Origin: Corynebacterium sp.
GTDB lineage: Bacteria > Actinomycetota > Actinomycetes > Mycobacteriales > Mycobacteriaceae
Direction: 5' to 3'
DNA length: 40,710 bases
Assembly (NCBI RefSeq): GCF_030538285.1
Contig: NZ_JAUNUG010000025.1
Location: 1 to 40,710 of the forward strand
Below are positions 9,732 to 27,856 of the stretch, one piece after another (position 1 is the first letter of the stretch; each line of letters begins with the position of its first letter). The notes beneath the pieces are model-generated. The model made no database searches. It was not told the DNA's origin and saw nothing but the letters and a program-made list of their open reading frames with translations. A program made the translations under genes and the position numbers.

Positions 9732-10379
9732 ATGAGCGAGCCTGGAATCCACGAATTCGACATCCTCCACTCCGAGCTGTTGCTCGAGTCACCGATTATC
9801 GCCGTGCGCCGCGACACCCTGGCCATGCCCGGCGGTGGGACCGGTCGCCGGGAGATCGTCGAGCACTTCGGCGCCGTCGCTGTCGTCGCCGTCCGCGAGG
9901 GCCAGGTCGCGCTCGTGCGCCAGTACCGGCACAGCGTGAAAGCCAGGTTGTGGGAGCTGCCGGCCGGGCTTCTCGACGCCGCCGGGGAAGCCGAGATCAC
10001 CACCGCCCAGCGCGAACTCGCCGAGGAGGCGGGGCTGGCGGCGAAGCGGTGGGAGGTGCTCTGCGACCTGGTCACCTCACCCGGCTTCTGCGAGGAAACC
10101 GTCCGCGTGTTCTTAGCCCGCGAGCTTTCCGACGTCGACCGGGGGGAAGTCGAACACGAAGAGGCCGACATGACCCTGTCGTGGTTCCCGCTTGAGGAGG
10201 CGCGCGCGATGATCCTGCGAGGTGAGATCATCAACTCCATCGCCATCTCCGGGTTGTTGTCTGCCTCCGAGGTGCTCGCCGGGCGGGCGGAACCCCGCAG
10301 CGTCGACGCTCCCTTCCCGTGGCGACCGACGTCACTCGCCACGCGCCGTGAGGGCCCGGATCTGAAGAAGATGACGTGA
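9732..10379 (+). CDS. NUDIX hydrolase, ADP-ribose pyrophosphatase type
   Basis: The product has 215 residues. The Nudix box runs [20 protein letters not shown] with EEAGL after it, the complete GX5EX7REUXEEXGU pattern. Surrounding sequence ([29 protein letters not shown]) is typical of ADP-ribose diphosphatases, so hydrolysis of ADP-ribose or a similar nucleoside diphosphate is expected. The counterpart is Rv1700. The TGA stop overlaps the GTG of xerD by four bases, so the two are translationally coupled. AGGGGAC precedes the ATG. Confidence 0.9.
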
Positions 10380-11260
10380 GGGATTTCGCCCAGACCTGGC
10401 TCGACCACCTGGCAGTGGAACGTGGCCTGTCCGCCAACACATTGAGCAACTATCGACGCGACCTGGACCGCTACCTCGACTGGCTGGAGGATGCCGGACG
10501 GAGTTCACTGGGAGAGGTGGCCACCGCCGACGTGGAGGCCTACGTCGCCGATCTGCGACGCTCCGGCCTGGCGGCCAGCTCCGCGGGACGCGCCCTCGTC
10601 GTCGCCCGCGGCCTGCACAAATTCGCCGTCCAGGAGGGGGCGGTGGGAGTGGACGTCGCGGCCGATGTCTCCCCGCCATCCACCGGCCGGCACCTACCCG
10701 ACACCTTGAGCATCGACGAGGTCACCCAGCTTCTCGACGCCATCCCCACCACCGATCCCCTTGACCTGCGCGATAAAGCGCTGCTCGAAATGCTTTACGG
10801 CACCGGGGCCCGTATCAGCGAGGTACTGTCGCTGGCCGTTGACGATCTCAGCGACTGCGAGGGCATCCTCCGCATCACCGGCAAAGGCAACAAACAGCGC
10901 ATCGTGCCTGTCGGATCGAAAGCCCTGGAGGCGGTCGACGCTTACCTCGTCCGCGGGCGCCCCGCACTCGCGCGCGGAAAGTCCCACGCCCTGCTGCTCA
11001 ACACCCGAGGGGGAGCGCTGTCGCGGCAAAGCGCTTGGGGCATCCTCAAGAACTCCGCGGCCCGCGCGGGCCTGGACAAAGACATCTCCCCGCACACACT
11101 TCGCCACTCCTACGCCACCCACCTGCTCGAAGGCGGCGCCGACGTCCGCGTCGTCCAGGAACTCCTTGGACACTCCTCGGTGACCACCACCCAGATCTAC
11201 ACCCACGTCACCGCCGAGAACCTGCGTCAGGTGTGGCGGGAGGCGCACCCACGGGCGTGA
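10376..11260 (+). CDS. xerD: Tyrosine recombinase XerD
   Basis: This is a chromosome-dimer resolution recombinase acting at dif with XerC. The N-terminal SAM-like domain occupies about 1-90. The catalytic set is complete: Arg146 (ARISEV), Lys170 (TGKGNKQR), His240 and Arg243 ([12 protein letters not shown]), His266 (LLGHSS) and Tyr275 (TQIYTHV). Length (294) and position after the NUDIX gene match the housekeeping XerD of C. glutamicum and Rv1701, so it is not evidence of an integrated element. GTG 10376 lies in a GTGA overlap. Its TGA abuts the stop of the convergent GIY-YIG gene, forming TGATCA with no spacer. Confidence 0.95.
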
Positions 11261-12271
11261 TCATTCTTTTGCTGTGCGTTCCTCCCACAGCTTGGTGAGG
11301 GCCTCGCGAGTAAGCTCCTGGGAGTGCCAGCGACGGAATATGCCCGCGGTGCCCGTGCGCATAAGTGCCACCGCAAGGGCGCGGGCCGATTGGAGCACCT
11401 GAGGATCGGTTTCCAGGACGTCGCGGAGACGGCCAGTCTCGTACTCCACGAAAGTCACCTCGGCTTTGGGGTACGTGAAGTTCCAGGTGTGGACGGTCAA
11501 GCTATCTGGGCCGTCGTAGGCCCATTCATAGACATCGCCGGATTCAGAGTTCTCCAATTCCGGCCAGGGAAATGTGTTGAGCACACTGCATACCTCGACA
11601 TCTTGCAGGCAGCGCAGCATTTCCAGCACTCCCACATTGATCGTGTAGTAGCGGCCGCCATTAGTGGAGGGTGTATCGGAGATTGTCCAATATTTCTCGA
11701 CGGTGCTCAGCGGATCGGGAATCACCAGATCAACGAAAGTAGCTATGTCGCGCAGGCAGGGTTCGTAGGCCGGGAGCTGGGTCATTCTCGACGACCCAGG
11801 AGGTAGCTTTGCGATGGTGCGGTCGAGCTCGTCGGCAGATACTAGCGTGGTTTCCCGATCGAGGAACTCGGAGTCCGCCCAATGGAACTGATCCTGCGGC
11901 GGGATGAACGCATCCAATGGTGACGGTTGGTCATGGTAAAGATTGAGGCTCCTGTTTCGGAGCTTCTTATCGTCTCTTTGAAACTGACGGATGAGTGCAG
12001 CCTCTTTCACGTGAAGTTCGTCTCGAGGATAGGGCGTGAACGAGACGTGAGTGATGTCGGTCCACGCAGGGTGGTGCGAGGTGTCCCAACAGTGATTAGC
12101 GAAGCGTTTGCGAACATCGCGTGCCTGACCGACGTAGAACTCACCGTTGTCGAACTCGAGGACATAAATCCCGCAGCATTCTTCTTCGGCCAGGATGGCG
12201 TTGATGGTGGTGAGCCCGTGGACCGCCCACCGGCGGGAAGCAGAGGAAGTCAGGGTATTGTCCTTTCTCAC
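11261..12271 (-). CDS. GIY-YIG nuclease-domain protein
   Basis: The product has 336 residues. An N-terminal GIY-YIG domain occupies about residues 33-120: CGIYVLEFDNGEFYVGQ has the paired GIY (34-36) and YVG (46-48) strands, followed by ARDVRKRFANH with the expected catalytic Arg. The remaining 210 residues are not recognisable; they are acidic and aromatic-rich. I see no DNA-binding zinc finger. It might be a nuclease, perhaps a defence or homing-type accessory gene, but function is unknown. The GTG start at 12271 has AAGG four to five bases upstream. It lies 41 bases downstream of the ABC-F gene on the same strand and may be co-transcribed. I do not remember it at this locus in C. glutamicum. 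Confidence 0.8.
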   Translation of the reverse strand: MRKDNTLTSSASRRWAVHGLTTINAILAEEECCGIYVLEFDNGEFYVGQARDVRKRFANHCWDTSHHPAWTDITHVSFTPYPRDELHVKEAALIRQFQRDDKKLRNRSLNLYHDQPSPLDAFIPPQDQFHWADSEFLDRETTLVSADELDRTIAKLPPGSSRMTQLPAYEPCLRDIATFVDLVIPDPLSTVEKYWTISDTPSTNGGRYYTINVGVLEMLRCLQDVEVCSVLNTFPWPELENSESGDVYEWAYDGPDSLTVHTWNFTYPKAEVTFVEYETGRLRDVLETDPQVLQSARALAVALMRTGTAGIFRRWHSQELTREALTKLWEERTAKE

Positions 12272-12312
12272 CGTGCCTTACAACTACTTTCCACCCTAGT
12301 TCTGGCTGGGCG

Positions 12313-13773
12313 CTACACGGGCGTGATCTCGAGCCGCGGCCAATGCACCGTGTCCGCGAGCATCTGACGGTCGTGGGTGACCAGGATGACGGCCGCTTGA
12401 GTCTCCTCTAAAGCCTGGGTCAGTTGGGTGACGGCGGGGATAGAGAGGTGGTTGGTCGGTTCGTCGAGAAGCAGGACAGAGGGGTCTTCGCGCAAGAGAC
12501 GAGCGATGTCACGCCGACGTAACTGGCCCATCGATAGCGGGTCGTCCGCATCTGCGGATTCTTGGCGCAGGTAACCGATCGCCGCGGGATCGGGGACCGT
12601 CACCGTGCCGGTAGCAGGTGCCAGCCGCCCGGCGAGCATATCTAGGAGTGTCGACTTGCCGGCGCCGTTGGGCCCGGTGATAACGAGTCGGTCGCCGCCC
12701 CGGATCGTCAAACTGACGGGGCCGGCGAGGCGAGCACCCAGGGAAACCTCCTCCGCGCGAAGATAGGTGCGGGTGGTTTTCGCGTGGAGACGCGGAAACG
12801 TCAGAACCGGTGGTGGCGGGGGCACGGTGACCTTCGCGGCGTCGATAGCTTCCTGCCGACGCTTGACCGCCTGCACCACACCTGGTGCCCGGGATTGGCG
12901 GGCGTGCTTGCCCGTGCCTTTCGGGGGCCGCCAGCCGGTGCTCAGACGCGACTGCGCCTGCTGAAGATCGGACTGCAACTGTGCTTGGCGGGCCGTTTGA
13001 GCAGCATATTCATCTGCCCACGCCTGCTCCAGGGCACTACGCCCCGCTCGATAACCTTCGTGGCCGGTACCCCACACGCGGGGCAGGCCATCGGGTGTGG
13101 GATCAAGATCGAGGATGGTGGTGGCCAGGTCGGCCAGTAGAGCCCGGTCATGGGAGACGACCAGCACGGACCCTTGCCGCTGGCGAAGCTGCTCGGTGAG
13201 GAATCCGAGACCGGTGTGGTCGAGGTGGTTGGTGGGCTCGTCGAGTAGCAAATGGTCATGGTGACCAGCGAGCAGACAAGCCAAGCGGACACGATAACGC
13301 TGTCCGACCGACAGCGAGTTGAGTTCCATGTCGTCGGGGAACACGGCGTCGAGAGCGGCCAGCGCGGTGCGGACCCGGCGGTGGGCGTCCCAGGCGTCGA
13401 GGCGCTCGGCCTCGGCGAGTGCCAGGGCATACTTGTCGGGGTCGGACTCAATGGTGTGGAGCGCTGTATCGAGACGCGCCAGCGCCTGCTCGGCGGGGCG
13501 AATCGTGTCGCGGACGGCCTCTCCGACGGTGCCGAGCGCGCTCATCTGCTGCGCAGCGAGGGCCACGGAACCGTGGACGTGAAGGCGCCCAGCATCGGGG
13601 AGGATGTCACCGATGAGCGTGTTGAGGAGAGTGGTCTTTCCGCGACCGTTGTCACCGACCACGAACACTCGGTTGCCGGCGGACAAGGCGAGGTTAAGAC
13701 CGCGGAATATAGTGCGGGTGCCGCGGACCACAGACAGGTCCTCGGCCACAAGTTGGGCACGACGGGTAGTCAT
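12313..13773 (-). CDS. ABC-F family ATPase, possible ribosome-protection factor
   Basis: The product is 486 residues with two nucleotide-binding domains and no membrane segment, the ABC-F layout. The first Walker A is GDNGRGKTT (40-48) with signature LSVGQ and LLLDEPTNHLDH. The second is GPNGAGKS (367-374) with degenerate signature MGQLRRRD and LLLDEPTNHLS. The linker (about 235-310) is rich in Gln, Arg and Lys, as in ribosome-binding ABC-F proteins. Family members include antibiotic-resistance factors (Vga, Msr, OptrA types) and translation factors (EttA, Uup types). The attenuator-like leader upstream favours the resistance type, which is inference. AGAAAG lies 7 bases before ATG 13773. Confidence 0.88.
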   Translation of the reverse strand: MTTRRAQLVAEDLSVVRGTRTIFRGLNLALSAGNRVFVVGDNGRGKTTLLNTLIGDILPDAGRLHVHGSVALAAQQMSALGTVGEAVRDTIRPAEQALARLDTALHTIESDPDKYALALAEAERLDAWDAHRRVRTALAALDAVFPDDMELNSLSVGQRYRVRLACLLAGHHDHLLLDEPTNHLDHTGLGFLTEQLRQRQGSVLVVSHDRALLADLATTILDLDPTPDGLPRVWGTGHEGYRAGRSALEQAWADEYAAQTARQAQLQSDLQQAQSRLSTGWRPPKGTGKHARQSRAPGVVQAVKRRQEAIDAAKVTVPPPPPVLTFPRLHAKTTRTYLRAEEVSLGARLAGPVSLTIRGGDRLVITGPNGAGKSTLLDMLAGRLAPATGTVTVPDPAAIGYLRQESADADDPLSMGQLRRRDIARLLREDPSVLLLDEPTNHLSIPAVTQLTQALEETQAAVILVTHDRQMLADTVHWPRLEITPV

Positions 13774-17670: not shown

Positions 17671-17951
17671 GGTCAGGAACGTCGAGTGCACGAAACGGGG
17701 TCTGGGTAGGGGGTATGGGGTAAATGTGTCCAAAGTTAACGCAAAGTTGCGCCTGCCACATCCCCGCTGCTGTCTGAAACCTTCTCCGGTGATCCCGGTT
17801 TCTCGGCACAGGTATTAGGGGGTGGGACCGAAGTTCGCCATTCTGCGGCTGTGCATGCAAATGTGGGATCCTCGGAAACGACGCTGAAGGTTCAACGGTT
17901 GATTACTTCCAGTCGGAGAGCATCCGTCTGCTCATGGAAAGGAACTGCGGA
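17671..17951 (+). other. Left boundary of inserted cluster, upstream region of the ATPase gene
   Basis: No gene is supported in these 281 bases. They include G-rich GGTAGGGGGTATGGGG (17706-17720) and a pair of AAAGTT words near 17735-17752. They must hold the promoter of the four-gene + operon, but I could not choose convincing -35/-10 boxes. No tRNA, integrase site or clear terminator for scpB is visible. Confidence 0.4.
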
Positions 17952-19058
17952 ATGGCTACAGTCAGTTTTCGAGAGGCCACTCGGGTTTATGAGGGCAGCA
18001 CAGTACCTGCCGTTGACTCCCTCAACCTAGAAATCGGGGACGGCGAGTTTATGGTGTTCGTCGGACCATCTGGCTGTGGAAAATCGACCTCGCTCCGAAT
18101 GCTGGCAGGGCTCGAGGAAGTCAACAGTGGTGAGGTCTGGATTGGGGACAGGGAAGTAACTCACGTACCGGCAAAAGATCGCGATATTGCGATGGTCTTC
18201 CAGAACTATGCGCTCTATCCGCATATGACCGTCGCTGACAATATGTCATTCGCATTGAAGATCAGTGGCGTAGGTAAAGAGGACCGCAGTAAGCGGATTC
18301 AGGAAGCCGCGAAAATGCTCGGCCTCGAAGACTTCTTGGACCGCAAGCCAAAGAACTTGTCCGGGGGACAGCGGCAGCGAGTCGCGATGGGGCGTGCAAT
18401 CGTGCGAAATCCGTCGGTATTTCTGATGGATGAGCCGCTGTCCAACCTCGATGCCAAGCTGCGTGTCCAGACTAGGACCCAAATCGCTGCGCTCCAGAAC
18501 AGGCTCGGGGTTTCCACCGTATATGTCACCCACGACCAGGTCGAGGCCATGACAATGGGGGATCGGGTCGCCGTCATGAACCGAGGGGTACTCCAGCAGG
18601 TAGACTCACCTCTTGCGCTTTATGATGCACCCGCCAACTTGTTCGTGGCGAACTTCATCGGGTCACCTTCAATGAGCCTATTCGACGCTGAGATAGTCGA
18701 TGGAGGAGTGACAGTAGCAGGTCATCATATTCCGGTTGCGCGCGAAGTTCTCGATCGGGCGACCGGCGCTACCGTGGTCATCGGAATCCGACCCGAGGCA
18801 TTTGACCTTGCCGACGGCGAGGACGGGATTGCGACGCGCATCAATGTCGTCGAACAAACTGGTGCGGACTCCTATTTCTACGGCGAACTCCATACATCTG
18901 AGCAGCCTTCCAGTGCGGAATCTTCAATCACCGCTCGGGTTCAGACCCGGCAAATTCCGGCTGCGGGCGACATTGTCGTGCTCACCGTGGATCCCACCAA
19001 GGTCCATGTATTCGACAAACAGACGAAGCAAAGAATATCTGGGGTGGTGACCCTGTAG
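17952..19058 (+). CDS. ABC importer ATPase, MsmK/UgpC type
   Basis: The product is a 368-residue cytoplasmic ATPase for a CUT1-type importer. Walker A GPSGCGKST starts at 38, the Q-loop is VFQNYALYPHMTV, signature LSGGQ is at 136-140, Walker B MDEPLSNLDAKLR is at about 159-171 and the H-loop is VTHDQ. The C-terminal 130 residues form the regulatory OB-type domain of MsmK/UgpC/MalK, with TGADSYFYGE and IRPEAFDL. ATG 17952 has GAAAGGA 8 bases upstream; ATG 17934 is an alternative. No permease is adjacent. The matching permeases and binding protein are in the convergent operon at 23346-26472, so it most likely energises those. Confidence 0.9.
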   Translation: MATVSFREATRVYEGSTVPAVDSLNLEIGDGEFMVFVGPSGCGKSTSLRMLAGLEEVNSGEVWIGDREVTHVPAKDRDIAMVFQNYALYPHMTVADNMSFALKISGVGKEDRSKRIQEAAKMLGLEDFLDRKPKNLSGGQRQRVAMGRAIVRNPSVFLMDEPLSNLDAKLRVQTRTQIAALQNRLGVSTVYVTHDQVEAMTMGDRVAVMNRGVLQQVDSPLALYDAPANLFVANFIGSPSMSLFDAEIVDGGVTVAGHHIPVAREVLDRATGATVVIGIRPEAFDLADGEDGIATRINVVEQTGADSYFYGELHTSEQPSSAESSITARVQTRQIPAAGDIVVLTVDPTKVHVFDKQTKQRISGVVTL

Positions 19059-20021
19059 TTGAATACGACACGAAAAGTAGTCATCGACTGTGATCCAGGG
19101 ATGGACGATTCAGTCGCTTTGCTCCTTGCACTAGCTTCACCTGAGCTGGATGTGCTCGGCATCACCACGACTCATGGCAACGTAGAGGTCAGTCTCGCTA
19201 CAACAAACGCTCTCAAAATCATCGATCTAGCACAGCGCGCTGACGTGCCGGTGGCACAAGGGGCGGAGGAAGCGCTTCGCGGAGGACGCCCAGTTGATCC
19301 TTTCAGCCATGGTGCAGACGGGCAGGCAGAGAACCATCTTCCTACTCCGCAGAAGACAGCCGAGCCAGTCAACGCGGTGACCTTGATGGCTGATCTGATC
19401 GAGAAGAACTGGGGCGAGGTAGAGATAATCTGCCTCGGTCCCATGGGGAATATTGCAACGCTCGTTAATGACAGACCTGAGCTCATCCGGGGGATCCGGG
19501 GAGTTACCGCCATTTCAGGACTTTTCGGGGTCACGGTCGACGCCTGGAAGAGTGCTACCGGGGACAATCCCGTATCTGAATGGAATGTGTATGTCGACCC
19601 CGAAGCAGCGAAAATCGTGTACGAGTCTCCTCTTGACATCAAAGCCATCGGGCTTGATGTAGCCACGAACTTCAGTATTGATTTTTCCGAGGAGCAGCTA
19701 GAGGCGCTCGACAACGCCCGGGGAGGGGCTGCTGCATTTCTCGCGCAAGCGATCGACTTCGTCAGAAGTCGTGGTTACGGTTCCTATTGCGCTGTGATCG
19801 ATGCCTTAGCTGTTGCTGCAATCGTCTCACCGGATCTGATTGACTATTCACCTGGTCGCGTTGGTATTTCGACAGAGGATCCTCTCACCCGCGGAATGAC
19901 GGTTCTGGACGCCAGGCAGCACCATGTGTGGGATGACTTGCCCCTCATCCAAGTGGCTACCCAGGTCGACTATAAGAGATTTCTCGAAATGATTGTTACC
20001 CGCTTTGCCGTACACGAGTGA
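19059..20021 (+). CDS. Inosine/uridine-preferring nucleoside hydrolase family protein
   Basis: The product has 320 residues. The N-terminal DCDPGMDD (10-17) is the calcium-binding DxDxxxDD motif of nucleoside hydrolases; ITTTHGN, LMADLIEKNW, ICLGPMGNIA and SGLFGV follow in family order. Such enzymes hydrolyse the N-ribosidic bond of nucleosides to base plus ribose; related members act on other ribosyl compounds. The start is TTG 19059, immediately after the ATPase stop with GGGGTGGTGA upstream, a rare start and a sign of tight coupling. TGA overlaps ATG at 20021, but the next gene reads in another frame. Confidence 0.88.
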   Translation: MNTTRKVVIDCDPGMDDSVALLLALASPELDVLGITTTHGNVEVSLATTNALKIIDLAQRADVPVAQGAEEALRGGRPVDPFSHGADGQAENHLPTPQKTAEPVNAVTLMADLIEKNWGEVEIICLGPMGNIATLVNDRPELIRGIRGVTAISGLFGVTVDAWKSATGDNPVSEWNVYVDPEAAKIVYESPLDIKAIGLDVATNFSIDFSEEQLEALDNARGGAAAFLAQAIDFVRSRGYGSYCAVIDALAVAAIVSPDLIDYSPGRVGISTEDPLTRGMTVLDARQHHVWDDLPLIQVATQVDYKRFLEMIVTRFAVHE

Positions 20022-20040
20022 TGAAAAGGAAGTGGTCTCC

Positions 20041-20469
20041 GTGACCGGAGAATGGCACGAATTTGAAGTCGAAACCAAGCCAGAAGAGGGGTTTGCCAAC
20101 CCGGTCTATTTCTTCGACATAACCAGAAATTTGCAGGCTTCTGTCGAAGGAAGGAACGATGGTCTCCTGCACGTTTTCGTACCACACACAACATGCACGT
20201 TGATCATGAACTCAGGGTTTGATGGGACGACTTTGCACGACATTCGGTGCTTCATCGAAAACCAGGTTCCCACCAGCGGGCCCTTCGTTCACCTCCATGA
20301 CGGACCGCAGGATGCCGCTGCACATGTACGATCGCTTTTCGGAGTGAACTCGCTAACTCTTCCAGTGCGAAGCGGAAAGCTTGCCATCAGTGAGAGCCAA
20401 GGCGTTTACCTTCTAGAACTCGATGGTCCCCGAAAGCGCACGGTCATGGTTGCAGAAGCAAGTTTCTAG
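20041..20469 (+). CDS. YjbQ / UPF0047 family protein
   Basis: The product has 142 residues, normal for YjbQ. HTTCTLIMN (49-57), a His/Asp block HLHDGPQDAAAHVRSLFG, and the C-terminal SQGVYLLELDGPRKRTV are diagnostic. Some family members can make thiamine phosphate in vitro, but the natural role is unsettled. The start is taken as GTG 20041, ten bases after AAAAGGA; GTG 20032 and longer in-frame options overlap the hydrolase gene. Its place between a nucleoside hydrolase and a sugar isomerase suggests a step on a ribosyl or sugar-phosphate intermediate (inference). Confidence 0.88.
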   Translation: MTGEWHEFEVETKPEEGFANPVYFFDITRNLQASVEGRNDGLLHVFVPHTTCTLIMNSGFDGTTLHDIRCFIENQVPTSGPFVHLHDGPQDAAAHVRSLFGVNSLTLPVRSGKLAISESQGVYLLELDGPRKRTVMVAEASF

Positions 20470-20507
20470 CGCTATTGACACAGTGAATATTGAAGCGGGA
20501 GTTCGAA

Positions 20508-21458
20508 ATGCCAGATGATACATTGGGCCAGCTAACAGCGGCCCTGAAGTCAGCACCGGACATTGATCCTTTCCCACTGAAAGACATGTCTGCCGCGGTG
20601 TTCACCGGGTGCGGGGATTCACTTGCCTCGGCGCTCGTCGCGGAAAGGCGAGGCTACCGGTCACTATCAGCGGGAGATATCGAATGGATGGGGGAGCTTC
20701 CCCGCTACGCAGGGACCATTGCCGGTATCTCACTTTCCGGTACATCCGGAGCCCCTATACGGGCACTGCAGAGAGCACGTAAAGCTGGATGGAAGACTGT
20801 GGCAATCACCTCCTCGGCCACTACGCCTTTGGGGCAGGCGGCAGAGTTTCAGCAACTTGTTCCGAGGCTGGATGTGCAGGAGCGCGTGCCCGTTGCCGGA
20901 CACGTCATGCTCGCTCTGGGCGTCGCGGCTGCATGTGGGATCGATACAGAAGGCGCTCCGTCGCGGTTGGCAAGGATTCTGGAGAGTGACGGCCGGGCAA
21001 TGGTTGATGAGGTTATGAGGCAACTGCCGGCGACGTTGCCTCATGCCGCCACTGTGCTTTCCCTGCCGGATACCCGGTCAGGTGCCAATTTCTGGACACT
21101 GAAGCTTATCGAGGGGTGCGGCATCGCAGCCCGTGACGTGCCCCTTGAGGAATCGGGGCATGTCGACTACTTCATAGGGCCCCAGCCCCACTTGGTTGTC
21201 GAGATTCTGGGCCGACGCGGTCAGGATAGATTCGAGGATCTGGGGCGTGCGCTAGGAAGAAATGGCATGACCCGAGTGAGATTTGATGCCAACTCAGCGG
21301 TCCCAGGAGAAAGTGACGTCGATGACCTACTGAGGGAAATCGTCGTGGCAGTGATTGGTGCCCTGGTGGTCGACGAAGCGTCGACCATGTGGGGACGTCC
21401 GCCGTTCAGGGGAGGGGCGGTAAACATGGATGCTTCTCACATCACCATCAGCTACTGA
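20508..21458 (+). CDS. Double-SIS sugar isomerase/deglycase-like protein
   Basis: The product has 316 residues with two sugar-isomerase (SIS) halves. The first contains FTGCGDSLASA (32-42) and ISLSGTSGAPIRALQRARKAGWKTVAITS (about 76-104), including the Ser/Thr phosphate loop. The second contains RSGANFWTLKLIEGCGIAARDVPLEESGHVD. This is the architecture of the GlmS isomerase domain, AgaS and FrlB: aldose-ketose isomerases or amino-sugar/fructosamine deglycases acting on sugar phosphates. The substrate is unknown. ATG 20508 has GGGAG six bases upstream; TTG 20490 is an alternative. Last gene of the + operon. Confidence 0.85.
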   Translation: MPDDTLGQLTAALKSAPDIDPFPLKDMSAAVFTGCGDSLASALVAERRGYRSLSAGDIEWMGELPRYAGTIAGISLSGTSGAPIRALQRARKAGWKTVAITSSATTPLGQAAEFQQLVPRLDVQERVPVAGHVMLALGVAAACGIDTEGAPSRLARILESDGRAMVDEVMRQLPATLPHAATVLSLPDTRSGANFWTLKLIEGCGIAARDVPLEESGHVDYFIGPQPHLVVEILGRRGQDRFEDLGRALGRNGMTRVRFDANSAVPGESDVDDLLREIVVAVIGALVVDEASTMWGRPPFRGGAVNMDASHITISY

Positions 21459-21728
21459 GATCTTGGCGACCAACTACTTTGGTAGTCGTGTCGCTGAGGA
21501 CACGTTCACTTCCGCGGAGATGTCCAAGGCACATCGATGTCGGAAGAATACTCATGTCATCCTGGCTCGCCACTGCGAGCAAGATACTCCCCCGGGGGCT
21601 TTAGCTGCCCTCATTGGGAACCGATGGGGCTCAGGCACTGTGTGAGTTCACAATAGCGGGCTCCGATGCGATGCGGGCTCGTCAACGCCTTCACTACGGA
21701 TGAGGTGCTGTCGACAGCGGCCGTGACG
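21459..21728. other. Intergenic stretch between convergent operons, no supported gene
   Basis: Two small hairpins follow the SIS gene: ACTAC/GTAGT (21473-21486, loop TTTG) and CGTGTC/GACACG (21487-21504). A 71-codon frame at 21430-21645 spans the rest but starts inside the SIS gene, has no recognisable motif and no ribosome-binding site. The length is unusual between convergent genes in this compact window, so it may contain decayed coding sequence, which I cannot identify. Confidence 0.4.
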
Positions 21729-21764
21729 AAGGGCGGTGGCTGCACAGTTGCAACCACCGCCCTT
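21729..21764. terminator. Strong bidirectional terminator between the two island operons
   Basis: AAGGGCGGTGG (21729-21739) pairs perfectly with CCACCGCCCTT (21754-21764). TGCA/TGCA can extend the stem inside the loop. The stem has A residues on one side and T residues on the other, so it works as an intrinsic terminator for both the SIS operon and the HAD operon. Confidence 0.85.
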
Positions 21765-21774
21765 AGCCATCGAC

Positions 21775-22569
21775 TCAGTCCTTCAAAATCTCCCGAACGA
21801 AGGCGAGTACGCCTTCGGCTTCGGGAGCCTCTGTGACGACATCAGCCGCCAGCTTCGCGTCATCGATGGCATTGGAAACGGCGACGCCCGTACCCGCCAG
21901 AGTGAGCATGTCGATGTCATTCTGATGATCCCCGAACGCGACCACCTCAGCAGTCGAGATGTTCAGATACCTGAGGATCCACTGGAGTGCGTTAGCCTTT
22001 GTCGCCTCCTCATGGACCAGTTCGACAGCCTTGTCGGTGTACTTGGTGTACCCGTAGCCATCTCCGAGCTGGCTGCACCAATCTTCGATTCGGTCGATTC
22101 TGCCGTCTCGAATGTCGTCCATCACCGTGACTTTCTCAACATAGAGAATGTGCCAGTCTGATCCATCAATCGGCCTGACTTTGTGGTAGCGGTCGAACTG
22201 CTCGCGTTGTCGTAGGATCCACGTCGTTTCCCGGTGCACGTACTCGGTGCTATCAATCGTATAGATGATCGACAGCCCCATGTGATCGGCGACGCCCAGG
22301 AGTTCCCGCAGCCCCCGTAAGGGAATCATTCTCTGCCATAGGACACGCCCGTTCTCGATGACCTTGGCACCGTTGCTCACGATGTAGGGAACGGAGATGT
22401 CGAGGTGCTCTGCAAAGGTAGAAGCGAGTTCGTTGGTCCGGCCCGTGGCGATAGTGAAAGCCACCCCCTTGTCTCGTGCGACAGTAGCCACCTTGAGCGC
22501 TGACTCGGAGAGAATTTCGTCTCTACCGATCAGTGTGCCGTCCAAATCGCAGACGATCAATTTGGTCAT
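21775..22569 (-). CDS. Cof-type HAD-IIB sugar phosphatase
   Basis: The product has 264 residues. Motif I CDLDGTLIGRDE has nucleophile Asp8 and Asp10; TIATGRTN is motif II; VVAFGDHQNDIDMLTLAGTGVAVSNA is motif IV in the C-terminal part. The IIB cap lies between them. Such enzymes dephosphorylate sugar phosphates or cofactors such as FMN and pyridoxal phosphate. It is the last gene of the five-gene - operon, with AGGAG before ATG 22569, inside the end of the phosphoesterase gene region. In this setting it would remove phosphate from the sugar phosphate released upstream (inference). Confidence 0.9.
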   Translation of the reverse strand: MTKLIVCDLDGTLIGRDEILSESALKVATVARDKGVAFTIATGRTNELASTFAEHLDISVPYIVSNGAKVIENGRVLWQRMIPLRGLRELLGVADHMGLSIIYTIDSTEYVHRETTWILRQREQFDRYHKVRPIDGSDWHILYVEKVTVMDDIRDGRIDRIEDWCSQLGDGYGYTKYTDKAVELVHEEATKANALQWILRYLNISTAEVVAFGDHQNDIDMLTLAGTGVAVSNAIDDAKLAADVVTEAPEAEGVLAFVREILKD

Positions 22570-22578
22570 GCAGAACTC

Positions 22579-23340
22579 CTAGATTCGAATCGGTACGCAG
22601 GAAACGTGATCGTGGCTGATCCGGACCAGACTCCAGTGGCGATGATTCAGCCGCACCGGAGCAGCGTCGCTGGACAGATCGGTCTCCCAACAGAAGGCAG
22701 GGGACGACCAGCCCAATGTGTGCCCCGACACCACTGCGCCAGCGTGGTGATAGTGGCCGGAGAGCACACAGCGAACTTTCGAATTGCTGATGACCTCCGA
22801 AAGCCGCTCGGCTCCCTCCATGAGAGGTCTGTGCAGGCTCTGCAACGGAGAAGTGAAGATCGGATGATGCACGACAAGAACACTGACGGAGGAAGTCGAA
22901 TGAACAAGCCGGTCACTGAGCCAGCTCAGTTGCGAATCGGACAGCCGACCATTGCCGTCGTCGTTGACGTTGGAATCCAACACGATGATGTCGAGGTCGT
23001 AGGAGCTGACTACCCCCGCGAACGGCTGCACTCCACCCTCTTCTGGTGGCTGCTGTGGAAGGGGCTGAATGCTCTGCATGAAGGCCTGCCGGTCGTCGTG
23101 GTTGCCCAGGGCCGGGATCACCGGCACCGGGCAAGCGGCGAAAAGCGCCCTCAACATCGAGTATCCATGGTTTGATCCACGTTGAACCAGATCACCGGTG
23201 ACGAGAATGGCTTGCACACCCCATTTCTCTACGGCGACCCGGAACCCCTCGCGCAGGATGGCGAAATCACCATCCGGCTGGTCGAAATTTGAGAGGTGGA
23301 GATCGGTGAACTGCGCGATTCTCCATTCAGAGCTGACCAT
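22579..23340 (-). CDS. GpdQ-like class III metallophosphoesterase
   Basis: The product has 253 residues, a binuclear-metal phosphodiesterase of the CpdA/GpdQ/Rv0805 family. All metal motifs are present: Asp13-x-His15 (FTDLHLS), Asp50 (VTGDLVQ), Asn80-His81 (LGNHDD), His158-His159 (VVHHP) and His196-x-His198 (SGHYHHAG). The stretch PALGNHDDRQAFMQSIQPL closely recalls the glycerophosphodiesterase GpdQ; cAMP phosphodiesterase remains possible. There is no signal peptide, so it acts on substrate after import. It lies 5 bases after the binding-protein gene. The ribosome-binding site is weak, suggesting coupling. Confidence 0.88.
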   Translation of the reverse strand: MVSSEWRIAQFTDLHLSNFDQPDGDFAILREGFRVAVEKWGVQAILVTGDLVQRGSNHGYSMLRALFAACPVPVIPALGNHDDRQAFMQSIQPLPQQPPEEGGVQPFAGVVSSYDLDIIVLDSNVNDDGNGRLSDSQLSWLSDRLVHSTSSVSVLVVHHPIFTSPLQSLHRPLMEGAERLSEVISNSKVRCVLSGHYHHAGAVVSGHTLGWSSPAFCWETDLSSDAAPVRLNHRHWSLVRISHDHVSCVPIRI

Positions 23341-23345
23341 GAGGT

Positions 23346-24704
23346 TTAAAGACCCGCGCGTTCGTTGTAGCGGGCGATGACCTCGGAACCTTCGGCTTCA
23401 GCGCTCTCGAGAGTGGCCTTCACATCGTTTCCGGCTGCGATAGCGTCAATGGCCGGCTGAGCAGCGTCAGATCGCAGAGATGCCATGGCACCGCTGTGGC
23501 AACCTCCGGTGATGAACGACCCTTCTGCCGACTCAAGCTGGTCGAGGATCACGGTTGCCTGCGGAGAAGCCTCGGGGCGAGCGAGTTCGATGGCAGCGGT
23601 GCTGTTCGGCAGGTAGCCGGTTGCTGCAAAGATCTTGGCCTGGGACTCAGGGCTGCCCATGAACTGGACGAAAGCGGCCGCTGCCGACTGCTGGGTATCA
23701 TCCTTGTCCTGTCCGATGACCCACAGGGCGTTACCGCTCGGGGCCAGACCACCGTCCCCATGATCAATCGGGCAGGGGTACACGGTGAATCCGTCGGGCA
23801 GCATGGACGAGACGTTTCCGAGGTTTCCGGAGGAAGCCATAAGCATGCCTGCGGTTTCGCTGCCGAAGGCGTTCTGCGCCTCTGAGCCCTGCTGACCGAC
23901 ATTGAGAAGGGCCTCAGACTCAATGATCTCCTGCATGTTCGTCCACTGCGAGATCTGAGCATCAGAGGAGTAGTTGACTGCATCGGCCGGCTCTCCACCC
24001 AACCCGTTGTCAGGCGTGCAATACAGCTCTCCGGCCGAGGAGGTCATGACCTCAAGCCAGTAGGAGTTCAGTCCCAGCGTGAGGCCAGCGGTACCTGTCG
24101 AATCCTTGATGGTCTGTGCCCACTCGGTGAGCTCTTCTACGGTTTCAGGGCCGTTGTCGGTGCTCAGCCCGGCTTCCTCGAGTAGGGAATCGTTGGCGTA
24201 GATGACCGGCATGGACACCTGGAAAGGCATCGCCTGAAGCTTGTCATCGTAGGTGTAGTACTGGTCGATGATCGGAACCAGGTCCTCGATGTTATCGGCC
24301 ATCTCACCCTCAGCCAGATCGGCGATTGGGGTGACCAGGCCTGAGTCGTACATGAACCCGGTGCTTGTGTCGGTGACCTGCATGACATCGGGCAGGTCCA
24401 CGGTGCCGACGGCGTTGGTCAGGCTGGCGATGGCGTCCTGGTATGAACCCTGGTAGATCTCGTTGACCGTGGCGTTGACGTCGTTCTCAGCGTTGAATTC
24501 CTCCACGAGCTGGCGGATGATGTCGGCCGAGGCGCCCGAGGCGGAATGCCAGAATTCGATGGTCACGGCTTCGGCCGGTGCACCATTCGAAGCGTCGGTG
24601 TTGTTGGCGTCGGTGTCACCGCTGTCTGAACAGGCGGTAAGGAACAGCGCCGTGGCGAGCGAGAAACCGGCGACTGCGGTTGAATTCTTGTGAAACTTGA
24701 TCAT
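23346..24704 (-). CDS. UgpB-like extracellular solute-binding lipoprotein
   Basis: The product has 452 residues. The lipoprotein signal has lipobox LTAC with Cys25. Mature sequence EFWHSASGASADIIRQLVEEFNAENDV, then YQGSYQDAIASL and DLPDVMQVTDTSTGFMYDSG, follows the order of E. coli UgpB (glycerol-3-phosphate / glycerophosphodiester binding). CUT1 family-1 binding proteins also bind sugars, so ligand identity is inferred. It is membrane-anchored outside the cell and feeds the two permeases encoded just upstream. It starts two bases beyond the stop of the second permease gene. Confidence 0.9.
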   Translation of the reverse strand: MIKFHKNSTAVAGFSLATALFLTACSDSGDTDANNTDASNGAPAEAVTIEFWHSASGASADIIRQLVEEFNAENDVNATVNEIYQGSYQDAIASLTNAVGTVDLPDVMQVTDTSTGFMYDSGLVTPIADLAEGEMADNIEDLVPIIDQYYTYDDKLQAMPFQVSMPVIYANDSLLEEAGLSTDNGPETVEELTEWAQTIKDSTGTAGLTLGLNSYWLEVMTSSAGELYCTPDNGLGGEPADAVNYSSDAQISQWTNMQEIIESEALLNVGQQGSEAQNAFGSETAGMLMASSGNLGNVSSMLPDGFTVYPCPIDHGDGGLAPSGNALWVIGQDKDDTQQSAAAAFVQFMGSPESQAKIFAATGYLPNSTAAIELARPEASPQATVILDQLESAEGSFITGGCHSGAMASLRSDAAQPAIDAIAAGNDVKATLESAEAEGSEVIARYNERAGL

Positions 24705-24706
24705 GA

Positions 24707-25558
24707 CTATTTCTCCGATCCTTGTGTGAGTCCCTTGGCAAGGAACTTCCGGCTGCTCAGAACGAGCAGAATCATGGGAATGGTGACTACAAACAGCCCG
24801 GCCAGTACGGCGCCGGTATCAGTGGCAGACTCGTCTGCCAGCTGGGTCAGGCCTACTTGGACTGTCCGGTTTTCAGGGGATTTGGTGATGAGCAGCGGCC
24901 ACATGTAGTTGTTCCATGCGCCGATTGCAGTGGTGACGGTCACGGCAAAGACCGTCGGGAGGTTGAGAGGGATGAGGAAGGACCACATGAACCGAAGTGG
25001 CCCAACTCCGTCGAGGGTGGCGGATTCATGGATCTGCCGGGGAAAGGTCAGAAACGCCTGCCGGAAGAGAAAGATTGCGGTTCCCGACGCGATCATGGGT
25101 AGGAAGATCGCGACGATCGTGTCGAACAGTCCCATCTGAGTGATCGTTAGGTAATTTGCCACGATGATTCCCTCGGCGGGAATCATGAGGGTGATCATCA
25201 CAAAAATGAACAACCACGTCTTCCCCCGCATCTTGCTGAACACGAGTGCGTAAGCGAACAAGATGGACGTCACCAGAACGAGGACCGTTTCCGCAATCGT
25301 CACGATCACGGTGTTGATGAGCTGGTCGAACAGAGGCGCGGCTCGGAAGGCCCTGGCGAAGTTGTCGAAGGTAGGGGGATTTGTCAAGAATCCCACGACA
25401 CCCTGAGACAATGCCGCTGGGGTTTGGAATGCTCCCAACAGGCCGAAGAGAACCGGGAACAAAATGACGAAGGTCATCAACCACAGGTAGACGACGAGGC
25501 CGGTCTGAAAGGCCCGCTTCTGTGGACTACGACGGCTGGATTTCACGGTGGTGGTCAC
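24707..25558 (-). CDS. ABC importer permease, UgpE type
   Basis: The product has 283 residues with six predicted membrane helices, beginning LVVYLWLMTFVILFPVLFGLLG. The EAA loop ESATLDGVGPLRFMWSFLIPL (about 193-213) contacts the ATPase, and GAWNNYMWPLLI is typical of CUT1 MalG/UgpE permeases. GTG 25558 overlaps the stop of the first permease by four bases (GTGA). It needs an ATPase, which is absent from this operon and presumably supplied by the gene at 17952. Confidence 0.92.
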   Translation of the reverse strand: MTTTVKSSRRSPQKRAFQTGLVVYLWLMTFVILFPVLFGLLGAFQTPAALSQGVVGFLTNPPTFDNFARAFRAAPLFDQLINTVIVTIAETVLVLVTSILFAYALVFSKMRGKTWLFIFVMITLMIPAEGIIVANYLTITQMGLFDTIVAIFLPMIASGTAIFLFRQAFLTFPRQIHESATLDGVGPLRFMWSFLIPLNLPTVFAVTVTTAIGAWNNYMWPLLITKSPENRTVQVGLTQLADESATDTGAVLAGLFVVTIPMILLVLSSRKFLAKGLTQGSEK

Positions 25559-26472
25559 GAGTAATGCACCCGCCTCTCAATGAAACGGAACTGAATGGCG
25601 GTGATCACGAGGACGATGAGCATGAGGATGACGCCGCGAGCTGCAGATGCTCCGTAATCTGCTGTTCCTGTTCCGAAGGCCGAGTTGTAGATTCCGATGA
25701 CCAGAGTGGTGGTCGCTCCACCCGGGCCACCACCGGTCAGGACGCTGATGATGGCGAACTGACGGAGAGCAAAGATCGTCAACGTGATGATCAGGAAGAA
25801 GATAGTGGGTGAAATCAGCGGTAGCTGTATCGACCACATTTTCCTGAGCTCAGAGGCCCCATCCATTGAGCCGGCCTCCATCACATCGTCAGGGACACCG
25901 TCCAAGGCGGCCAACAGAAGTAGCGTGACGTATCCGATACTGAACCACACTTCGACGGTGGTGACGCTGAACAGTGCCCATGTCTCATCAGTTAGCCATC
26001 GTGGCGGCTGATCGATTCCCACAAAAGCCAGGAACCGATCGAGAGGACCACTGACCGGCTGCAGAATGGACCTAAAAGCGACAGCGGTTGCGGCGACAGA
26101 CATTGCCATGGGAATGAGCACGAAGCTTCGTAGAAAAACAGTTCCTTTCAGCCGAGCCGAAAGGGGGATGGCGATTGCCAGACCAACTACAATCTTCCCG
26201 ACGACGGATCCCACGGTGTACACAAGCGTAATGAACAGCTCTCTGAGGAAACGCGGGTCAGTGAACATCAGTCTGAAGTTCTCGAAACCCACGAAGCCCG
26301 TTGGTTGACCGAAGATATTCGTCCCCTGCATGGACATAATGAGTGTCCGAAGTAGTGGATAATACTGGAACAGTAGAAAGACAATGATGACCGGAAGCAC
26401 GAACAGAACAGGCCACAATTGCGGCGGCTGTTTCCGTCTCGGGCCAGAGCGAGCCGGCATCTTTACTTCCAC
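25555..26472 (-). CDS. ABC importer permease, UgpA type
   Basis: The product has about 305 residues and six helices; LWPVLFVLPVIIVFLLFQYYPLLRTLIMS is the first. The EAA loop is EAGSMDGASELRKMWSIQLPLISPT. It pairs with the UgpE-like permease. The start is taken as GTG 26472, eight bases after GGAGG; TTG 26487 and ATG 26460 (after GGAAG) are alternatives. It is the first gene of the - operon, preceded by an untranslated leader of about 165 bases. Confidence 0.88.
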   Translation of the reverse strand: MEVKMPARSGPRRKQPPQLWPVLFVLPVIIVFLLFQYYPLLRTLIMSMQGTNIFGQPTGFVGFENFRLMFTDPRFLRELFITLVYTVGSVVGKIVVGLAIAIPLSARLKGTVFLRSFVLIPMAMSVAATAVAFRSILQPVSGPLDRFLAFVGIDQPPRWLTDETWALFSVTTVEVWFSIGYVTLLLLAALDGVPDDVMEAGSMDGASELRKMWSIQLPLISPTIFFLIITLTIFALRQFAIISVLTGGGPGGATTTLVIGIYNSAFGTGTADYGASAARGVILMLIVLVITAIQFRFIERRVHYS

Positions 26473-26610
26473 AAGTGGAGCCTCCAACCGATCCCTCCTC
26501 AGGTAGTCGAGCAGTGCACCTCCCGATCCTCAACCGGATCGCGGGCACTGGATAGCGAAAGGTTCGATCGTGCTTCCGATGTTTCGAAGGACGAGCGAAG
26601 CCTGGGCCAA

Positions 26611-26637
26611 ACTCTTTCAGGGTTGTCGTGAAAGAGT
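26611..26637. promoter_or_regulatory. 9-9-9 inverted repeat, candidate operator at +1 of the importer operon
   Basis: ACTCTTTCA (26611-26619) and TGAAAGAGT (26629-26637) are perfect inverted arms with a 9-base spacer, centre to centre 18 bases. The repeat begins at the predicted transcription start of the minus-strand operon. A repressor there, most simply the GntR/UTRA protein encoded next door, would block transcription. It could also be a stabilising 5' hairpin in the mRNA. Confidence 0.5.
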
Positions 26638-26644
26638 CCCGATC

Positions 26645-26673
26645 AGTATCGCAGTGGAAGTAGTGCCCCTCAA
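26645..26673 (-). promoter_or_regulatory. Candidate promoter of the importer operon
   Basis: On the minus strand, -35 TTGAGG (26673-26668) and -10 GATACT (26650-26645) are separated by exactly 17 bases. The predicted start is near 26638, about 165 bases before the first permease start. The remaining intergenic bases up to 26901 hold the palindrome CTGAATTCAG (26841-26850) and nothing else I can name. Confidence 0.5.
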
Positions 26674-26901
26674 CCGTAAAAGGGCTTTGGCCAGAGGTTA
26701 TGCAGAAAACTTGATGGCTTAGTGGTGGCCGGTTGATACCTCGAAAATTGAACCTTGTGGTGGCATTTTGAGACAAAGAGACGGTGTTGCTAAGACATCC
26801 CGGTTAGCCTGCAGTTCACGTGGATGTGCCTTGCCGCTGACTGAATTCAGCTTCAATTCACTTGCTCGCAATGAGAAGGTTTGCCCTGTATTGGGGTGTT
26901 T

Positions 26902-27687
26902 TCACGGTCCGAGAAGGAGGTTGTCATTGCTGCTCTTGCGTACCTGGCGGAACCTGACACGGCTGCTGAGCCAGACGGTCCGCGAAAGTTGGATCAATTT
27001 ATCGTCCTTGTCTCTCGTCACCGCAACGACGGTGAACAGAGGTTCATCCGGGTCACATTGGAGCAGTTCTGTCTCGTATACAGTTGTCAACTGGATTGAA
27101 AGCAGATTATCGATCGTGTGGGAAGCCAGCTGGAAGTTCTCGCGGAGTTTGCGAGACAGCGAGCCCTCAATGAGTGGGTGGTCGGAAGTTAGACCCGGTA
27201 CGCGTTTTCCCGGTATCCACGACTGAGAGATCCCCACCGGGTAGCCGTCGATAAGTTGAACCCGCTCAACGATGATGAATGGTCCGGCCAGCTCAGTTTC
27301 GTGAACTGTCTGAGTGCACATGGCGGCAACTTCCGAGGGGATCGCGGGAGTTGAGTCATTTCTGGTGACGATTGCGTCTACCCGACGTCCTTCCTCCTCC
27401 AGCCTGGTCCGCCAGGGAACGGTTAAGGCCAGTTCCTGCTGAACTGGAAGGTGTTTCTGAGTGACGTATGTTCCGTCTCCGTGTACCCGTTTGATGAATC
27501 CGTCTTCTGCCAGTGCGCCCAGAGAATGTCTCAGGGTCACCCGGCTGATGTCGTAGCGATCCGCGAGGTCTTTCTCGCTGGGCAGCTTCGTCCCGGGCGG
27601 AAGTTTTCCCGTGTTTATTTGCTGCTTGAGGTCTTGAAGTACCTGGTACCAGATCGGTGTGGATGAGGTTCGGTCAATCTCTCTCAT
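26902..27687 (-). CDS. GntR-family regulator with UTRA ligand domain (HutC subfamily)
   Basis: The product has 261 residues. The N-terminal winged helix is IWYQVLQDLKQQINTGKLPPGTKLPSEKDLADRYDISRVTLRHSL (about 12-57), the standard GntR pattern. A UTRA ligand-binding domain from about 90 to 245 includes VERVQLIDGYPVGISQSWIPG. HutC-type regulators usually sense a sugar phosphate or related metabolite of the pathway they control. Its place at the edge of the cluster suggests it controls both operons and perhaps itself. AGAAAGG precedes ATG 27687 by 7 bases. Confidence 0.9.
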   Translation of the reverse strand: MREIDRTSSTPIWYQVLQDLKQQINTGKLPPGTKLPSEKDLADRYDISRVTLRHSLGALAEDGFIKRVHGDGTYVTQKHLPVQQELALTVPWRTRLEEEGRRVDAIVTRNDSTPAIPSEVAAMCTQTVHETELAGPFIIVERVQLIDGYPVGISQSWIPGKRVPGLTSDHPLIEGSLSRKLRENFQLASHTIDNLLSIQLTTVYETELLQCDPDEPLFTVVAVTRDKDDKLIQLSRTVWLSSRVRFRQVRKSSNDNLLLGP

Positions 27688-27689
27688 AA

Positions 27690-27703
27690 TGAGACCTTTC
27701 TCA
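27690..27703. promoter_or_regulatory. Inverted repeat over the gntR ribosome-binding site
   Basis: TGAGACCTTTCTCA is TGAGA-N4-TCTCA, and its spacer contains the gntR Shine-Dalgarno. It may be an autoregulatory operator or an RNA hairpin. A possible gntR -10, TATGAT on the minus strand, is at 27755-27750. The rest of the gap to rluB (27704-27856) is the right edge of the insertion. Confidence 0.3.
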
Positions 27704-27856
27704 GGGATTCCGCGCTGCCGAGTCTGTCCACTCTGCAGGAGTCGGAGCCATCATAGGCTCTACCGGACCCGGGCCCGTGGATTTCCGCTCTGATGGTTGC
27801 CCTCCGGTAGGGTGGAGCGGAACCAATTGCATACCCCAAGATAGGACACGATCTAC

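Follow-up and report, generated by a model that had tools for sequence, protein, structure and literature searches.

The window analysed here, a stretch of 40,710 nucleotides from a Corynebacterium sp., carries an island of ten intact genes (17952-27687, within the checked stretch 17671-27856) between scpB and rluB. They form two convergent operons, four genes on the plus strand and six on the minus strand, with gaps within each operon of -4 to 38 bp. The families of all ten have been matched in Pfam and NCBIfam, which corroborates the gene set and arrangement given in the initial annotation, and the flanks have been confirmed as ScpB and an S4/pseudouridine-synthase (RluB-type) protein. The assembly is reported to be 6.7% contaminated; the genes flanking the island are congeneric.

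The plus-strand operon begins with a UgpC/MsmK-type ABC ATPase with a MalK-type OB/TOBE C-terminus (17952..19058), whose gene abuts that of a nucleoside-hydrolase-family protein of a divergent clade (NH; 19059..20021; Pfam IU_nuc_hydro, 251.5 bits). It continues with a YjbQ/UPF0047 protein of a divergent subfamily (20041..20469) and a SIS-domain protein (20508..21458), predicted from its domain and its actinobacterial relatives to be a phosphosugar isomerase or deglycase. The minus-strand operon comprises a GntR/UTRA regulator (26902..27687; Pfam GntR and UTRA), a UgpA-type permease (25555..26487), a UgpE-type permease (24707..25558), a UgpB-like solute-binding protein (SBP; 23346..24704), a calcineurin-like (class III-type) metallophosphodiesterase (PDE; 22579..23340; Pfam Metallophos, 62.5 bits), and a Cof-type HAD-IIB phosphatase (21775..22569). 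Between the operons, an inverted repeat can form a strong stem-loop on either strand (-40.5 and -47.9 kcal/mol over the 91 nt of 21700-21790), and this stem-loop (21713..21780) is a probable bidirectional terminator.

The distance between scpB and rluB is 11-303 bp in 26 of 29 congeneric loci (these 29 come from the best-matching among 60 other genomes), including the three closest, with ScpB 83-86% identical, and the ten-gene block is an insertion because this gap is closed there. In the remaining three, neither rluB nor island genes were seen within 1.5 kb. The island SIS gene was not found in the other 150 congeneric genomes searched (one carrier in 151). GC per kb is 0.53-0.61 within the island and mostly 0.63-0.70 outside, and GC3 is 0.56-0.74 in its genes, compared with 0.71-0.90 in six flanking genes. 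The island has been inserted between scpB and rluB, as initially claimed, and the comparison of base composition and codon use proposed at that time agrees with this. Border repeats or a tRNA hinting at the insertion mechanism were sought and none was found, and Rfam at its gathering threshold gave zero matches in the window. It could be argued that these are ancestral genes, retained in this genome and lost from its relatives, since a Corynebacteriaceae isolate (L027) carries a related SIS gene, a GntR gene, and part of a PfkB gene. However, the rarity of the SIS gene among congeneric genomes, the closed scpB-rluB gap, and an island GC and GC3 unlike those of the flanks largely refute this explanation, which has been rejected as extremely improbable.

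The best solved relative of the binding protein, whose translation shows a lipobox-like LTAC near the N-terminus, is E. coli UgpB (E 3.1e-36). According to the part of the source used here, the residues of UgpB responsible for phosphate coordination and for the glycerol-3-phosphate (G3P) clamp have been assigned (PMC12718374). The island protein keeps all four phosphate ligands (Tyr65, Ser144, Ser270, and Tyr346 in E. coli numbering) as well as Gly307 and Arg397, the Gly/Arg hydroxyl ligands, and has Asp in place of Glu89, as occurs in the glycerophosphocholine-binding protein. The two-Trp clamp of G3P-binding UgpB is absent: Trp192 is replaced by Leu, so that the clamp should open, and alignments differ on whether Tyr or Trp occupies the second site. 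Taking into account that the protein scores 154.7 bits against an NCBIfam UgpB equivalog cut-off of 411, its sequence indicates a protein that works like UgpB without being filed as UgpB. Both permeases also fall below their equivalog cut-offs; the UgpE-type one is 36-44% and the UgpA-type one 38-45% identical to permeases beside UgpB-like genes in ten wider loci (L154-L163). The ATPase passes the cut-off for UgpC (NF008653, 467 bits; cut-off 432) and has the Pfam domains ABC_tran, OB_MalK, and TOBE_2; four further ATPases of the UgpC/MsmK type are encoded elsewhere in the same genome.

In five of these ten wider loci (L155-L159), a UgpQ/GDPD-like gene adjoins that of the binding protein; the GDPD assignment was confirmed by Pfam in both of the two tested, and in the one locus tested for it (L159) an inositol-monophosphatase-family gene follows. 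These GDPD-type enzymes are unrelated to the island's PDE. The other five loci, including the closest one (L154), gave zero phosphodiesterase hits. The nearest plasmid relative of the binding protein, a Paenarthrobacter SBP (40%), has as neighbour a 250-residue protein without a Pfam match, and no adjacent phosphodiesterase was identified there. The kept phosphate ligands, together with the GDPD genes beside half of the importer relatives, support a phosphodiester as the substrate of this importer. Some UgpB proteins bind the phosphomonoesters G1P or G3P, in the part of the source used here (PMC12718374).

An ordinary oligosaccharide importer lying beside unrelated phosphoesterases would be compatible with the MalK-type domains of the ATPase, with matches of the permeases and binding protein to maltose- and glucose-type families, and with the lack of a phosphodiesterase in half of the wider loci. 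Nevertheless, MalE has none of the four phosphate ligands, and the four SBP2 proteins aligned (of 15) from the related nucleoside-type operons discussed below have one of the four, and phosphodiesterases recur beside the importer type of the island. A plain sugar importer has therefore been rejected as the likelier reading, given four of four ligands against none in MalE, and is considered very unlikely.

The motifs DLH, GD, GNHD, HH, and GHYHH, of the type that provides the metal ligands of class III metallophosphodiesterases, are all present in the PDE, which by its sequence is a metallophosphodiesterase of this type. The initial description of this enzyme as GpdQ-like holds as regards these motifs, but not as regards its nearest relative, since the best solved match is Rv0805 (E 1.4e-16), ahead of 2dxl and 2zo9 (E 3.5e-12 and 4.1e-12), which we take to be GpdQ. 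In 24 of the 29 best-matching loci, relatives of the island PDE adjoin genes for a binding protein or a permease; eight of these adjacent binding proteins (from the 16 loci with such a hit) have been aligned, and they lack the equivalent of Tyr65 and are 23-25% identical to the island's. This recurrent proximity to ABC-importer genes, added to the ligands and the GDPD neighbours, is in line with the original proposal of phosphodiester uptake, and the ligand is probably a phosphate-bearing compound of this class. The HAD-IIB phosphatase passes the TIGR00099 cut-off (153.8 bits; cut-off 137) and contains the motifs DLDGT and GDHQND.

Nucleoside hydrolases of the IUNH family have a DxDPGxDD motif and an E-x-N segment of the ribose site, and a His-Asp pair near the C-terminus belongs to the active site. 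The island NH carries the segments DCDPGMDD and SEWN, and at the C-terminal position has Ile-Asp, as do 13 of 13 aligned relatives, whereas two solved relatives have His-Asp. Lacking the His of these two hydrolases, the NH may not cleave ordinary nucleosides. YjbQ passes TIGR00149 (87.5 bits; cut-off 67.75) and has Ser at two sites which, in five of five PDB relatives (one organism contributes two of the five), are occupied by a Glu after HTT...N/Q and a Trp before Gln. Proteins of the YjbQ/UPF0047 family occur widely, and no settled role is known for them.

The SIS protein was originally called a double-SIS isomerase; one weak SIS half is seen by Pfam, which bears this out in part. All 15 scanned members of its family show a SIS domain (E <= 0.01), and 15 aligned sequences have in common the invariant segments S.SG.S.A, LEESGHVDYF, and FRGGAVNMDA.H, with Glu and His among the invariant residues. 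Among the profile matches is 3eua, a putative fructose-aminoacid-6-phosphate deglycase, over the 47 residues of the SIS core. A single-sequence search of 396 genomes of the phylum gave partial matches scoring 26 bits or less in 11 other genomes, and a profile search, which scored up to five candidates per genome and may thus miss family members, gave best matches below 50 bits in 304 further genomes (of 394), which were taken as generic SIS domains and not as members of the family. Zero matches were obtained in the plasmid collection and no relative was confirmed in viral contigs; the single-protein scan of genome contigs detects close relatives only.

The possibility has been considered that RNA debris is imported, in the form of short oligonucleotides or 2',3'-cyclic nucleotides, which the PDE would open, the HAD phosphatase dephosphorylate, and the NH split. 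The best NCBIfam match of the PDE is indeed the 2',3'-cyclic nucleotide phosphodiesterase SpdA, although this match is weak (73.6 bits, below the cut-off of 400). A UgpB-like gene on a Thermus plasmid adjoins a surE nucleotidase gene, and a Thermus UgpB relative binds the dinucleotide U3G, according to the part of the source used here (PMC12718374). Such a route would not need SIS or YjbQ, and the NH is devoid of the usual His; this substrate is considered unlikely.

Relatives of NH, YjbQ, and SIS occur together in a rare nucleoside-type operon, found at 17 actinobacterial loci (L014-L029 and L095), with the layout NH-PNP-importer-ARH-YjbQ-PfkB-SIS-GntR, and for which no description was found in the literature searched. 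The island NH is 42-45% identical to that of 13 of the 17 loci, with SYC..ID and TGDN.VSEWN (or a close variant) in common; YjbQ is 62-69% identical in 15 and 39% in L095, and SIS 45-55% in 16 loci and 40% in L095. A GntR protein 32-40% identical to that of the island is encoded in all 17, in L023 outside the module; this resemblance is weak, as even the L023 protein reaches 32%. L018 is truncated by a contig start. The sequence of L027 ends upstream of SIS, so that its missing NH, YjbQ, and importer genes are uninformative; the alignment of the related loci holds 14 of 16. The YjbQ subfamily is tied to SIS, PfkB, and nucleoside-cleaving enzymes in 16 of the 17. These relationships lend support to the ribosyl or N-ribosidic part of the initial proposal. 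The operons carry kinases, with a PfkB gene directly before SIS in 17 of 17, many also PNP, ADP-ribosylglycohydrolase (ARH), or adenosine deaminase (ADA), and some ribokinase, and most use a different importer, of the SBP2 type. An island-type PDE, HAD phosphatase, or UgpB-like SBP was found in none of the 17. The island is the reverse, with PDE, HAD phosphatase, and UgpB-like SBP but no PfkB kinase; the five PfkB genes found in this genome are all on other contigs.

No second locus with both halves was found besides the window, and hence their union rests on one case. They could be two independent systems brought in by one insertion, a glycerophosphodiester operon (importer, PDE, HAD phosphatase, and GntR) and a nucleoside or ribosyl module (NH, YjbQ, and SIS), acting on different compounds. 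The importer occurs with GDPD and without the other half in L155-L159, NH-YjbQ-PfkB-SIS is accompanied by another importer in most of the 17 loci, and an operator common to the upstream regions of both operons was sought and not found (one GGT-N4-ACC-like site was seen in the island at 26730, and none in the 16 related loci scanned). Against independence, the first gene of the NH operon encodes an importer-type ATPase, this operon itself contains neither a permease nor a binding-protein nor a kinase gene, and both halves share the low GC and the single insertion site. Two separate systems are considered somewhat doubtful.

No description of the island's gene set was found in the literature searched, in line with the initial annotation, to which no described pathway with this set was known. 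Compared with E. coli Ugp (UgpBAEC and UgpQ), the island has a UgpB-type SBP in which the phosphate ligands are conserved, permeases of the UgpA/E type, a UgpC-class ATPase, and a phosphodiesterase within the cluster; it differs in the calcineurin-like nature of this enzyme (UgpQ is a GDPD), in Trp192 being Leu, in the UgpB match below the equivalog cut-off, and in the added HAD phosphatase, NH, YjbQ, SIS, and GntR. The nucleoside-type operon shares related NH, YjbQ, and SIS and a GntR/UTRA of similar sequence, and differs in its kinases, its importer, and the PNP, ARH, ADA, and ribokinase genes present at some of the loci. Fructoselysine (frl) type operons combine GntR/UTRA, an importer, a PfkB kinase, and a SIS deglycase; the island resembles them in its SIS protein, ABC importer, and GntR/UTRA, but has no kinase, carries NH and YjbQ, and shows a SIS match limited to the 47-residue core. 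The importer and regulator of the Agrobacterium acc (agrocinopine) system belong to other families. By its description, acc resembles the island in the ABC import of a sugar phosphodiester, followed by a phosphodiesterase (AccF) and a phosphatase (AccG), and its repressor senses the phosphosugar product; NH, YjbQ, and SIS are not mentioned for acc in the part of the source used here (PMC4526662).

It is proposed, with moderate confidence, that the island is a horizontally inserted catabolic set for an organic phosphodiester with a ribosyl or nucleoside-like group. We infer the substrate, the enzyme activities, the sequence in which these act, and the joint function of both operons as follows. 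The UgpB-class ABC importer would bring in the phosphodiester, which the metallophosphodiesterase would cut in the cytoplasm to a phosphorylated sugar or nucleotide; SIS, as isomerase or deglycase, and YjbQ would process the phosphosugar, the nucleoside hydrolase would remove the base or another N-linked group, and the HAD phosphatase would remove the phosphate, the GntR/UTRA protein being predicted to sense an intermediate. In the nucleoside-type operons, an unphosphorylated sugar would enter and PfkB would phosphorylate it; in the island, the phosphodiester itself would supply the phosphate, and this would account for the lack of a kinase. The glycerophospho-sugar and the entry into central metabolism suggested initially would be conjectural additions to this scheme. 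More tentatively, the phosphodiester may supply its own phosphosugar and make PfkB dispensable, with the altered-site YjbQ subfamily and SIS acting on this phosphosugar, in a route not yet described.

If this is true, the YjbQ/UPF0047 family would gain a physiological role in sugar catabolism. On the importer side, UgpB-class transporters may feed something other than glycerophosphodiesters. A YjbQ subfamily tied to a kinase in its relatives, and here to phosphodiester-uptake genes without a kinase, provides a concrete hypothesis, and raises the question of which phosphosugar is common to YjbQ and SIS.

All ten genes that the initial annotation had placed between scpB and rluB are present and intact (17952-27687), and they form the two convergent operons it described, with ATPase-NH-YjbQ-SIS (UgpC-type ATPase, nucleoside hydrolase, YjbQ and SIS proteins) on the plus strand facing PermA-PermE-SBP-PDE-HAD (UgpA- and UgpE-type permeases, UgpB-like binding protein, metallophosphodiesterase and HAD-IIB phosphatase) on the minus strand. 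Gaps within the operons range from -4 to 38 bp, a strong stem-loop lies where they meet, and the GntR/UTRA gene shares the strand of PermA and lies 414 bp upstream of it. GC falls to 0.53-0.61 in the island, and the suggested comparison with the flanks gave a GC3 of 0.56-0.74 for island genes versus 0.71-0.90 for six flanking genes.

The proposed insertion was borne out in relatives. ScpB is present in 61/61 congeneric genomes, and in 26 of the best 29 loci read from the 60 others, the three closest relatives included, rluB follows scpB after 11-303 bp; in the remaining three, the 1.5 kb next to scpB shows no rluB and no gene of the island. Of 151 congeneric genomes searched, only the one to which the window belongs yielded the SIS gene. 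A search for a tRNA or border repeats that could explain the arrival of the block found none. The contig fits its genome despite a reported assembly contamination of 6.7%, since its ScpB is 83-86% identical to those of congeners. A further stretch of somewhat lower GC (11261-13773, about 0.60-0.64), directly downstream of a phage-integrase-family (XerD-type) gene (10376-11260), encodes an ABC ATPase protein of 486 aa, in which two ATPase stretches are present, and a 336-aa protein lacking a Pfam match (E <= 1e-8).

A tblastn scan of named genomes yielded 16 loci with a SIS relative (47-55% identity), all labelled as actinobacterial, in hosts including Arthrobacter, Streptomyces, Kribbella, Agromyces, Prauserella and a Corynebacteriaceae isolate; one more (L095, genome G868) came from a profile search across 394 class genomes. 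These 17 loci share SIS, GntR and PfkB (17/17 each), the PfkB match always ending within 300 bp ahead of SIS, together with YjbQ (16/17, the exception being a truncated locus), a sugar-type binding protein (15), a second PfkB (14), NH (13), nucleoside phosphorylase (PNP) and ADP-ribosylglycohydrolase (10 each), adenosine deaminase (7) and ribokinase (4). The suggested search for co-occurrence of SIS, NH and YjbQ with UgpB-like genes found a UgpB-like SBP in 0/17 of these loci, and PDE and HAD also in 0/17 (E <= 1e-8). No description of this nucleoside-type operon was found in open-licence papers.

A near-complete version forms a single array at L095:4635-18236, comprising PfkB2, a second SIS protein (382 aa), YjbQ, PNP, PfkB, SIS, importer, ADP-ribosylglycohydrolase, ribokinase, NH and adenosine deaminase, with GntR just upstream on the opposite strand. 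Arthrobacter sp. Soil762 carries the YjbQ-PfkB-SIS set twice on one contig (L020, L023), with about 28 kb between the copies; in the second copy, SIS is followed by an NMT1/THI5-like gene, and the region upstream yielded none of the usual importer genes. In Arthrobacter sp. 35W, two subfamily YjbQ genes (L015:4522-5082 and 8647-9096) lie on either side of the importer genes.

The window NH and 13/13 related sequences share SYC..ID, where two solved hydrolases carry the His-Asp pair of the active site, and SEWN in a similar setting. The YjbQ proteins share NSG.DGTTL.DIR and SQG, except for the more distant one of L095 (39%), and that of the window lacks the Glu and Trp found in five solved YjbQ proteins. 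Through these shared departures, the island NH and YjbQ are tied to the same lineage as SIS.

The best match of the island SBP among solved structures is E. coli UgpB (E 3.1e-36). According to PMC12718374, UgpB coordinates phosphate through two Tyr and two Ser, binds the glycerol hydroxyls through Glu, Gly and Arg, and clamps glycerol between two Trp. In alignments, the window SBP has 4/4 phosphate ligands and also retains Gly and Arg, with Glu replaced by Asp and the first Trp by Leu, the second Trp position being ambiguous. E. coli MalE keeps 0/4 phosphate ligands, and SBP2 proteins from four related nucleoside-type loci 1/4 each. As judged from these residues, the binding site is UgpB-like, despite a score under the UgpB equivalog cut-off. 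In a Thermus plasmid (L092:4210-8083), a UgpB-like SBP with 4/4 phosphate ligands adjoins a surE 5'/3'-nucleotidase gene, a hint of nucleotide-type ligands for some UgpB relatives.

The solved structures 2dxl and 2zo9 are presumably GpdQ, to which the island PDE had been likened. SBP relatives (E <= 1e-40) occur in 17/394 class genomes, the window's own included. Among ten wider loci drawn from the other 16, a UgpQ/GDPD-like gene immediately adjoins SBP in five (L155-L159, all from one bacterial family), with permeases close by; Pfam confirmed GDPD in both loci checked (L155, L159) and, in L159, the single locus checked for it, a gene of the inositol-monophosphatase family. The other five, the closest (L154) included, showed no phosphodiesterase match. 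The island PDE matches in 121/394 class genomes (E <= 1e-12, own included), and 24 of the best 29 other loci have an SBP or permease gene within about 1.5 kb; eight aligned SBPs from PDE loci keep two Ser/Thr and one Tyr ligand, and lack the equivalent of Tyr65 (E. coli UgpB numbering). Thus, the pairing of importer and phosphodiesterase recurs with unrelated enzymes. It is likewise found in Ugp/UgpQ, with an unrelated enzyme, and, according to PMC4526662, in agrocinopine catabolism, with AccF as phosphodiesterase and AccG as phosphatase.

Compared with the nucleoside-type operon, the island shares the core, lacks PfkB (the genome has five PfkB genes, all off this contig) and has instead PDE, HAD and a phosphate-type importer; the simplest reading is that phosphate arrives with the substrate. 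The ATPase heading the NH operon may link the two halves of the island. The main rival is that two unlinked systems lie side by side; four further ATPase homologues are encoded in the genome (E <= 1e-60), and therefore that of the island is not the sole candidate partner. If phosphate does enter with the substrate, a phosphodiester would be imported and cut to a phosphosugar or nucleotide, and SIS/YjbQ, NH and HAD would then act on the cleavage product.
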